Assembly: GCA_028817875.1 (NCBI GenBank)
Contig: JAPPOO010000060.1
Location: 1 to 38,206 of the forward strand
Direction of reading: 5' to 3'
DNA length: 38,206 nucleotides
Source: Alphaproteobacteria bacterium
GTDB lineage: Bacteria > Pseudomonadota > Alphaproteobacteria > UBA2136 > JAPPOO01
The stretch's first letter is position 1; every line of letters begins with the position of its first letter. The position numbers and the translations under genes are program-made. The notes beneath the pieces were generated by a model, which was given only the letters and a program-made list of their open reading frames with translations, was not told the DNA's origin and made no database searches. Shown here piece by piece: positions 2,526 through 5,737 of this stretch.

Positions 2526-3010
2526 CGAATGTCTATTTTTTCGCGGAAATCTACATAATCTTCAATATCGGGGTTTCTATCCGGCGCCAGCATGGAGAAT
2601 TCCGTTACTTCCATTTTGTACAGCTTGTACGGTGCGTTGTTACCGCGGAAGTAGTCCGCATTATCGTAAGGTAGGAATGGTTCTGTGGTTCGTTTCAGCA
2701 ATAGCTGCAACCCTTCTTCGTTTTGTTCATCTGGCACTTGCAAGGCATTACCCCGCATGTACACGCCATCGCCCGTGCCTTCCGGTGCTGTGGAATCATA
2801 CACAACAGCACCTACTTTGGGGTTTTGAGCAATATTGCGTGAATGGGCGCAGTTAGGTGAGGAAACCCAGTAGAAGTTGTATTTTTCGTCATACGCTGTG
2901 AACAACGGACTGCACCAAGGCTGACCATCCTGACCTACGGTTGCTAGGTCGAGGTAGGTAATATCCTTTAGAATTTGGACGGCTGTTGAGGCGCGTGTCG
3001 CTTCTGTCAT
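2522..3010 (-). CDS. Pyridoxamine 5'-phosphate oxidase-like FMN-binding protein
   Basis: 162 residues, near the usual length for the single-domain split-barrel PNPOx-like family (general stress protein 26 type). An N-terminal helix is followed by strands with 'YLDLATVGQDGQPWCSPLF', the typical first hairpin where 'G-x-P' precedes the flavin pocket, then 'FYWVSSPNCAHSRNI' and 'NPKVGAVVYDS', all characteristic of this fold. Such proteins bind FMN or F420 and reduce small molecules in the cytoplasm; the substrate cannot be told here. The start has a near-perfect AAGGAGG about 8 bases upstream. It is divergent from clpB, with the CIRCE-like element between, so its own promoter may also be affected by that operator. 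Family confident; role unknown. Confidence 0.82.
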   Translation of the reverse strand: MTEATRASTAVQILKDITYLDLATVGQDGQPWCSPLFTAYDEKYNFYWVSSPNCAHSRNIAQNPKVGAVVYDSTAPEGTGDGVYMRGNALQVPDEQNEEGLQLLLKRTTEPFLPYDNADYFRGNNAPYKLYKMEVTEFSMLAPDRNPDIEDYVDFREKIDIR

Positions 3011-3090
3011 TTCGGTTCCTCCTTAGTTTCTTCAAACTTAGCTTTTATAAACGTTTATGTATAGATTTTTAGAGTGCAAAATATCCGAAA

Positions 3091-3117
3091 TTATCACTCT
3101 TGACATGCGAGTGATAA
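3091..3117 (+). promoter_or_regulatory. CIRCE-like HrcA operator upstream of clpB
   Basis: Perfect dyad TTATCACTC - 9 bases - GAGTGATAA. The CIRCE consensus for the HrcA repressor is TTAGCACTC-N9-GAGTGCTAA, so arm length and spacer are identical and only one symmetric base pair differs. It lies 38 bases before the clpB start and its spacer holds the -35 hexamer, the expected place for a repressor of heat-shock genes. hrcA itself is not in the window. Confidence 0.85.
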
Positions 3118-3128
3118 AATCCAATACT
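3100..3128 (+). promoter_or_regulatory. Probable sigma70-type promoter of clpB
   Basis: TTGACA (3100-3105), a 17-base spacer, then AATACT (3123-3128, 4 of 6 to TATAAT). The -35 sits in the CIRCE spacer and the dyad's right arm covers the promoter spacer, so bound repressor would exclude RNA polymerase. I saw no clear sigma32-type promoter beside it. Confidence 0.65.
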
Positions 3129-3154
3129 TGTTTTAAAGGCAAGGAGGAATGCTG

Positions 3155-5737
3155 ATGAATACGGACAAATTTACAGAAAAGACTATTAATTTGCTGAATG
3201 CGGCGCAAACAAAAGCGTTGCAGGATGACCACCAGCGCATTACGGCGCTCCATTTGCTTTATGCATTTTTAGATGACCCCGAAGGTTATGCTGAGAGGCT
3301 TCTGCAAAAGGCTGGGACGAATACGCAAGACTTACTGAATAAAACCGAAGCAGCACTGGCGAAGATACCGAGTGTTTCCGGTGATAGTGCGCAGATTTAT
3401 GCAGATAAAGATTTTGCAAAAATTTTGGCTGTGGCAGAGAAAGAATCTACCAAATGGCAAGACCAATTTATTGCTGCGGATTGCCTGCTTTACTTGTTGG
3501 TGAAAGAGAAAACCGAGGCTCAGAAAATTTTGGCTGCTGGTGGTATTAAACCTGAGGAGCTTAAAAAGGTTATTGATACGGAGCGCGGCGAGCAAACGGT
3601 TTCCAGTAAGTCTGCTGAGGACAACCAAGGTGCTTTAGCCAAGTACACAACAGACATTACCGAACGCGCAAGAGATGGGAAAATTGACCCTATCATCGGG
3701 CGGGAGGCAGAAATACGGCGGGCGATTCAGGTTTTGTCTCGCCGTACAAAGAATAACCCTGTTCTTATTGGGGAAGCAGGTGTTGGTAAAACTGCTATTG
3801 TGGAAGGCCTCGCCCAGCGGATTGTCAACCAAGACGTGCCTGAATCCTTACAGGGGAAACGGTTGCTTTCTTTAGATATGGGTGGGTTGTTAGCTGGGGC
3901 GAAATTCCGCGGTGAATTTGAAGAGCGACTTAAAGCCTTGTTGAAAGAGGTTGAAGCAGCAGCTGGCGAGATTGTGCTGTTTATTGATGAGCTGCACACC
4001 CTTGTGGGTGCTGGTGCTACGGGTGAAGGCAGTATGGATGCCTCTAATTTGTTAAAACCTGCTTTGGCACGGGGCGAATTGCACTGTGTAGGTGCGACAA
4101 CACTAGATGAATACCGCAAACATATTGAGAAAGACCCTGCCCTCGCCCGTCGTTTTCAGAGCGTGTATGTGGGTGAGCCAAGCGTAGAAGAAACGATTTC
4201 TATTTTGCGCGGTATTAAAGAGAAGTACGAAGTTCACCACGGGGTGCGCATTGCTGATAATGCACTAGTTGCTGCGGCGCAGCTTTCTGACCGTTATATC
4301 AGCGGGCGTTTTTTACCTGATAAGGCTATTGATTTAGTTGATGAGGCTGCGGCGAACATCCGTATGGAAATTGATAGCAAACCCAAAGATTTGGATGCTT
4401 TAGACCGTAAACTTATGCAGCTCAAAATTGAGCAAACGGCTTTGAAAAAAGAACGCGACCAAGCTTCTAAAAAGCGGCTGAAAGAGATTACGGAAGACAT
4501 TAAAACGCTTCAAAAACAGAGTGATGACTTGAACAAACAGTGGGAAGAAGCGAAGCGGCTGATTCAAGGAAGTAATAAAATTAAAGAGGAGATTGAGGAA
4601 GCGCGCCGTGCGATGGAAATTGCCCAGCGTGAAGGTAACTTGAATGACGTCGCTAAATTGCAGTACGGGACGATTCCTGAACTAGAAAAACAGCTGGAAA
4701 AAGTAGAAGCTGCCGAGAAAAACGATAAAGCCAAAAGTATGCTGCGGGAAGAAGTTTTGACGGATGACATTGCCAAGGTTATTTCTGCATGGACGGGTGT
4801 ACCCGTTGATAAAATGCTGGAAGGCGAGCGCGAAAAACTTCTTAAAATGGAAGAGCTTTTAGGCAGCCGCGTGGTTGGGCAACCTGATGCAGTACAGGCT
4901 GTATCTGAGGCTATTCGCCGTGCTCGGGCTGGCTTGCAGGATGCCTCCCGCCCGATTGGTTCCTTCCTGTTTTTGGGGCCAACTGGGGTTGGTAAAACCG
5001 AGCTGACTAAAGCATTGGCGGAGTTCATTTTTGATGATGAGCAAGCCATGGTGCGAATTGACATGAGTGAGTACATGGAAAAGCACGCTGTGGCACGCCT
5101 GATTGGTGCGCCTCCTGGTTATGTGGGGTACGACCAAGGGGGTGTGTTGACTGAGGCTGTGCGCCGCCGCCCCTACGCTGTGATTCTGTTTGATGAAGTT
5201 GAAAAAGCGCACCCCGATGTTTTCAACGTTTTGTTACAGGTATTGGATGACGGGCGCTTGACAGATGGACAAGGCCGTACGGTTGATTTTACGAATAGCA
5301 TTATCATCCTCACCAGTAATTTAGGTGCCGAATTTTTGGCAAACCTAAAAGATGGCGAAGCTGCGGATTCTGTTCGGGATGATGTGATGCAGGTTGTGCG
5401 GCAGGCTTTTCGCCCTGAGTTTTTGAACCGTCTGGACGATATTATTCTGTTCAACCGTTTGGATAAAAATGTGATGACCGATATTGTAAAGGTTCAGTTA
5501 GAATTGCTTAAAAAGCTGCTGGCAGACCGCGATATTGAGCTTGAATTGACGGGCTCTGCGCTTCAATGGTTGGGTGATAAGGGGTACGACCCTATTTATG
5601 GCGCACGGCCGTTGAAACGGGTGATTCAAAAAGAGTTGCAAAACCGTTTGGCGGAGATGATTTTGAAAGAAGAACTTACCAACGATAGCTGTGTTAAGGC
5701 CGATGTAAAAAACGGAGAACTGCTACTTACCGCTTAA
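3155..5737 (+). CDS. clpB: ATP-dependent disaggregase ClpB
   Basis: 860 residues, the normal ClpB length. It works with DnaK/DnaJ to pull proteins out of aggregates in the cytoplasm as a hexamer. In order: Clp-N domain (about 1-145); first AAA+ module with Walker A 'GEAGVGKTA' near residue 206 and Walker B 'VLFIDELHT'; a long coiled-coil middle domain (about 400-525, '[19 protein letters not shown]'); second AAA+ module with 'GPTGVGKTE' near 608 and '[14 protein letters not shown]'; and the C-terminal D2-small domain. A middle domain this long separates ClpB from ClpA and ClpC. The ATG at 3149 directly abuts the AAGGAGGA; the ATG at 3155 has the right spacing and gives '[10 protein letters not shown]', the usual start. 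Control is likely by HrcA through the CIRCE-like dyad. Confidence 0.97.

Follow-up and report, generated by a model that had tools for sequence, protein, structure and literature searches.

In most proteobacteria, clpB is a sigma-32 gene. For the repressor HrcA and its palindromic operator CIRCE, several regulons have been described. In Caulobacter, CIRCE was found in the groESL promoter (PMC8119881, PMC3989490), and in Rhizobium hrcA may have a restricted role, as in Agrobacterium (PMC3557214). Among delta-proteobacteria, groESL is reported as the sole constant HrcA target, which hrcA-grpE-dnaKJ and rpoH have joined in some members (PMC545781). Geobacter and Desulfuromonas carry CIRCE before hrcA-grpE-dnaK-dnaJ, as the genome studied here does before hrcA-grpE-dnaK, and Geobacter sulfurreducens carries it also before rpoH (PMC545781, Table 8). 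However, clpB is absent from the text of that article as available to us, and position 4 is G in each of the 9 sites listed in its Table 8. For Spiroplasma melliferum, the promoters of dnaK, clpB, and lon were described as controlled by HrcA, those of dnaK and clpB with two CIRCE copies; several copies are decayed and groESL has no CIRCE (PMC5138195). The Mollicutes are, however, a distant phylum, and rpoH coexists with HrcA in the genome studied here. Mollicutes are not known to have rpoH. A literature search over titles, abstract beginnings, and text passages, mostly outside subscription journals, returned no report of clpB under HrcA in Alphaproteobacteria.

The window, that is, the whole stretch of 38,206 nucleotides that was analyzed, corresponds to contig C4 in a 95-contig genome of 1.58 Mb. 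This genome shares an HrcA repressor and a CIRCE-type palindrome with Caulobacter and the rhizobia, where the described target is groESL. Here, in contrast, good predicted operators stand at clpB and hrcA-grpE-dnaK, and the groESL site is degenerate. The clpB gene lies on the forward strand and ends at 5737 (Pfam Clp_N, AAA_2, AAA_lid_9, ClpB_D2-small), and the best named matches of its product were mostly alphaproteobacterial. The ATG at 3155, 7 nt after a Shine-Dalgarno-like AAGGAGG (3141–3147, forward strand), is a likelier start than the listed ORF start at 3149. Upstream, positions 3091–3117 of the forward strand read TTATCACTC-TTGACATGC-GAGTGATAA. Compared with canonical CIRCE, TTAGCACTC-N9-GAGTGCTAA (form taken from PMC545781), the sole difference is the symmetric pair 4/24, which is T/A in place of the canonical G/C, a typical rather than essential pair. 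The arms are perfectly complementary and agree with the CIRCE consensus at 16 of 18 positions. The variant TTATCACTC-N9-GAGTGATAA scored 35.3 bits in our operator model, to whose training set it belongs. A scan of 2990–3180 for sigma-70-type promoters gave three sites (mean of 0.4 in shuffles), the best being TTGACA-17-AATACT, with 10 of 12 positions matched. The predicted −35 TTGACA (3100–3105, forward strand) fills the operator spacer, and the predicted −10 AATACT (3123–3128, forward strand) follows 17 nt on. Thus, both the CIRCE-like palindrome with one changed symmetric pair and its placement over the clpB −35, as given in the first-pass annotation, were borne out. A pyridoxamine-phosphate-oxidase-like gene (PF01243; 2522–3010, reverse strand) diverges from clpB, and the operator might in principle also touch its promoter.

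When the CIRCE model was left free at pair 4/24 and up to three mismatches were allowed, 3091–3117 was the sole match in the window, with 0 mismatches, against a mean of 0.10 matches at the same threshold in shuffled windows. The exact operator pattern occurred at two places in the genome, and its reversed control at none. A chance palindrome is therefore rejected by the shuffle counts, the exact-copy search, and the conservation of the site at clpB across the order described below, and its probability is negligible.

The second exact copy, C61:7199–7225, lies upstream of hrcA-grpE-dnaK. The first-pass annotation had tied its reading to the presence of hrcA and to further copies of the operator, and the two were found together: the single hrcA of the genome (PF01628 match at C61:6162–6824, 196.3 bits, above the cut-off) carries the identical operator. 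The E. coli genome used as a control gave no HrcA match. One solved structure was found among the sequence relatives of this HrcA, 1stz (E 4.9e-17), which we take to be Thermotoga HrcA. Downstream of the exact copy, at an offset of 34 bp, a weaker G-type operator with three mismatches was present, and paired hrcA operators 34–35 bp apart were also seen in G002, G003, G004, G005, and G007. We also considered a different reader of the variant palindrome, either an HspR-like repressor or a paralogue of HrcA. The changed symmetric pair could mark another protein, and HspR targets clpB in Campylobacter (PMC8533110). Against this stand the one HrcA match in the genome, the identical palindrome at hrcA itself, the CIRCE spacing and core (CACTC-N9-GAGTG), and the T- and G-type arms found side by side in other genomes of the order, so that such a repressor appears very unlikely and HrcA remains the preferred reader of the site.

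The regions upstream of clpB, hrcA, and groES were compared between the order (18 genomes) and other families of the class (up to 78 genomes). The set consists of related and in many cases incomplete genomes, and the comparison covered the regions that were retrievable. The clpB operator was present at two or fewer mismatches in all 11 readable order genomes, whereas 1 of 59 genomes outside carried it (G023). The order set came from 14 clpB matches after G003 (weak, E 5.7e-4), G015 (a C-terminal piece), and G005 were dropped; the contig of G005 starts inside the operator, so that TTGACA and a single arm remain. Of the 73 genomes with a match outside the order, 14 were dropped since the match was incomplete, lay at a contig edge, or did not look like ClpB; some of these had fetchable upstream sequence (e.g., G024, G081, and G085); the second clpB copy of G077 was left out of the counts. 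Mononucleotide-shuffled clpB upstream regions gave no site at three or fewer mismatches in 1420 trials, and none was present at that threshold in the 500 nt upstream of 80 named ClpB genes, most of them proteobacterial. The departure claimed by the first-pass annotation, clpB with an HrcA operator, is thus a conserved one in this order. In G023, the only case seen outside it, TTGACG overlaps the left arm (L217, G023:C25:11898–11924); its hrcA has no operator, and the clpB operator is possibly an independent gain.

The hrcA operator behaved similarly, being found at three or fewer mismatches in 18/18 order genomes versus 0/51 others (58 had a match, and the partial G041, G063, and G091 were excluded). 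A scan of the whole hrcA locus at two or fewer mismatches gave 16/18 versus 0/55, with G047, G070, G084, and G088, which are outside the former count, included. The groES operator, on the other hand, was present at two or fewer mismatches in 15 of the 17 order genomes with groES, the exceptions being the present genome and G016, versus 44 of 69 others (of 71 with a match). These distribution counts indicate that groESL is the class-wide target, and clpB and hrcA are additions typical of the order. Summed over the 18 genomes, the real pattern gave 73 sites at two or fewer mismatches and the reversed pattern 9, so chance may account for roughly one in eight of the 73. The reversed sites concentrate in G003, G004, G005, G008, G014, and G015. 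In G004 (3 reversed vs 3 real) and G005 (2 vs 3), the control nearly equals the real count, and genome-wide matches alone therefore prove little there.

The overlap of operator and promoter was examined in the same clpB regions. In all 12 complete operators TTGAC was present, within the spacer in the 11 order genomes and across the arm edge in G023, and it was also found in the truncated operator of G005. At spacings of 16–18, the best clpB −10 stood at 17 in 11 of the 12 promoters; it was weak, with 3/6 matches to TATAAT, in G001, G011, G013, and G016. It could be argued that sigma-32 is the main driver of clpB here, as elsewhere in the proteobacteria, and that the CIRCE-like site adds little. 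The rpoH match of the present genome (327.8 bits) is slightly above the curated cut-off (323.1), and most order members have one at 300 bits or more: 8 of 18 are above the cut-off, and 7 more score 300 to 323 bits. Of the rest, G011 has a fragment, and the incomplete G003 and G016 gave only matches that score no higher than the housekeeping sigma factor. However, the best promoter-like match is of the sigma-70 type, in a scan limited to sigma-70 promoters, and this promoter lies within an operator that has kept both arms across divergent genomes. We therefore regard a mainly sigma-32-driven clpB as unlikely. Because of the rpoH distribution, a dual HrcA and rpoH system is likely in most members of the order, and clpB could have a second, undetected control, rpoH being present.

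The best overall explanation, which we hold to be very probably correct on the sequence comparisons given here, is that the HrcA operator controls clpB within an HrcA regulon that has been enlarged in this lineage, with relaxed position 4. The single HrcA of this genome would use 3091–3117 as a working operator. At normal temperature, HrcA would sit on the −35 and spacer of the clpB promoter, and sigma-70 polymerase would be kept off. Heat or unfolded protein would inactivate HrcA, and clpB would be released along with hrcA-grpE-dnaK, which has the same operator. In Campylobacter, HrcA is reported to be inactivated by heat and GroE to promote its DNA binding (PMC8533110), and an effect of GroESL on HrcA was also described for Caulobacter (PMC8119881). 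The regulon would have been enlarged in one order of small-genome alphaproteobacteria, and the base preference at position 4 of the half-site would have relaxed or shifted (G or T). The mechanism would be an ordinary one in an unusual, conserved place, clpB standing under a predicted HrcA operator.

Half-sites of operators near clpB, groES, and hrcA were counted, with two or fewer mismatches allowed elsewhere in the site. T at position 4 was found in 47 of 94 half-sites in the order versus 1 of 102 in other families, and within the order in 45 of 68 half-sites of families f1, f2, and f4 versus 2 of 26 of f3, f5, and f6; these half-sites are not independent, and a Fisher value is not a proper probability for them. 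The present genome entered with two sites, and all four half-sites were T. In sister genomes T and G were mixed, even inside a single palindrome, which rules out a strict symmetric operator switch. A midpoint-rooted HrcA tree was built from all 18 order sequences and a hand-chosen 14 of 55 others. In this tree f1 (the present genome), f2, and f4 formed a clade with support of 100/97, and f1 fell inside f2; the support of the sister group of f3, f5, and f6 was only 91/94. T at position 4 is thus, as far as these sequences go, restricted to a lineage, in the manner of relaxed or drifting specificity with no clean switch. The first-pass annotation had suggested that the symmetric change may mark a lineage-specific HrcA. 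Its lineage restriction held, but not a uniform change, since T and G are mixed and the weaker hrcA and groES sites of this very genome are G-type.

We also looked for a recognition-helix residue that could account for the T preference, and no clean correlate was found. The DNA-binding region of HrcA in the order departs from that in the class at many columns, e.g., GSRTLSRR versus GSK[AV]LVES in helix 2. Q at column 47 of the aligned fragment was rejected as a candidate: it is common in the T-using families, but it occurs in 5 G-only genomes and is absent in G012, which has T-type sites. Column 77, one of 144 in the fragment, was the sole column without a residue shared between the groups, with N, H, R, or K in 13/13 T-using genomes and G, S, or A in 56/56 others. 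It lies just after the GRIPT wing and is the N of ATN in this genome. Because the 13 T-using genomes form one clade, column 77 is a candidate only and not evidence of cause, and the difference may be clade drift.

The first-pass annotation had assumed an operator before groESL, but no good copy of either the canonical or the variant form precedes groESL in this genome. The best site upstream of groES, C82:44745–44771, lies about 113 nt before the start codon and combines a perfect canonical (G-type) left arm with three mismatches in the right arm. Its score in the operator model was noise-like (12 bits, E 2 in 65.6 kb). None of the shuffled regions, derived from clpB, equalled it by mismatch count. 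Functional CIRCE in Mycoplasma gallisepticum is reported with at most two mutations (PMC5138195). The groES site may thus be a relic or a weak site, and groESL may have escaped HrcA control or be under weak control; this is the least certain part of our reading. In f2, two operator-like sites abut before groES with a 27 bp period in 8 of 11 genomes (L280, L325, L353, L367, L368, L382, L289, and L348), and in at least six cases the upstream one has fewer mismatches than its neighbor (four or fewer mismatches).

Further predicted targets were seen in relatives. An operator preceded lon in 9 of 11 f2 genomes (lon being identified there by its N-terminus, one of them checked with Pfam), dnaJ in G001, G006, and G017 (in G001 by the operator model alone, overlapping the start codon), grpE-dnaK in G017, and hsp20 in G003 and G010. 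In f2, TTGAC also lay in the hrcA operator spacer in 10 of 11 genomes (not in G017). In the present genome, a third operator place was found at C12:4332–4358, 70 nt upstream of a BI-1/YccA-like gene (PF01027); this site was not used to train the operator model, and its genome-wide E of 0.004 is a rough value. Its spacer holds TATAAT, 17 nt after TTGAAA. Operators before relatives of this gene also occur in G013 and G017; in all, three genomes of two families have them (L428 1833–1859, L433 188–214, and L440 110–136), and as the loci were chosen for motif matches, the evidence is the common gene family, not a rate. The genome-wide search of the present genome with the operator model, up to E 5, returned clpB, the two hrcA sites, and the BI-1 site only; it scored 150 of 451 first-look candidates, and weak sites may thus be missed. 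The other predicted targets of relatives were not found by the model in this genome, where lon and hsp20 genes were not located, and no operator at three or fewer mismatches preceded dnaJ on 7.7 kb. The departure from the usual HrcA targets therefore stands at clpB, but it is not limited to clpB, since lon, dnaJ, grpE-dnaK, hsp20, and BI-1-like genes also carry operators in some relatives.

A wider reading, which we offer tentatively and would not yet favor, is that HrcA rather than sigma-32 acts as the principal heat-shock switch of the order. HrcA would have taken clpB and hrcA-grpE-dnaK and, variously, lon, dnaJ, hsp20, and BI-1/YccA-like genes. Position 4 would have been relaxed, perhaps via the post-wing residue, which changed from G/S/A to N/H/R/K in the clade that uses T. 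The ancestral target groESL would have been lost from the regulon in the line leading to this genome, where GroE might still modulate HrcA while no longer being controlled by it. The order offers a natural series in which a repressor regulon grew, its operator drifted at one pair, the usual target weakened, and rpoH is mostly still present. Such a series opens two questions to testing: how control of heat-shock genes passes from sigma factor to repressor, and which residues of HrcA recognize base pair 4 of CIRCE.

The rpoH loci were also searched for CIRCE. No such site preceded rpoH in the present genome, where the best site had six mismatches. In five alphaproteobacterial genomes outside the order, CIRCE with one or two mismatches to the canonical form lay 73 to 180 nt upstream of rpoH (G083:C1:4406258–4406284, G049:C182:1236–1262, G063:C127:3491–3517, G027:C6:59221–59247, and L413 of G044), a placement also reported for Geobacter sulfurreducens. 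Two of these (G083 and G044) came from 30 scanned loci, and the other three from pairing motif matches with rpoH matches. HrcA may control sigma-32 in these five genomes.
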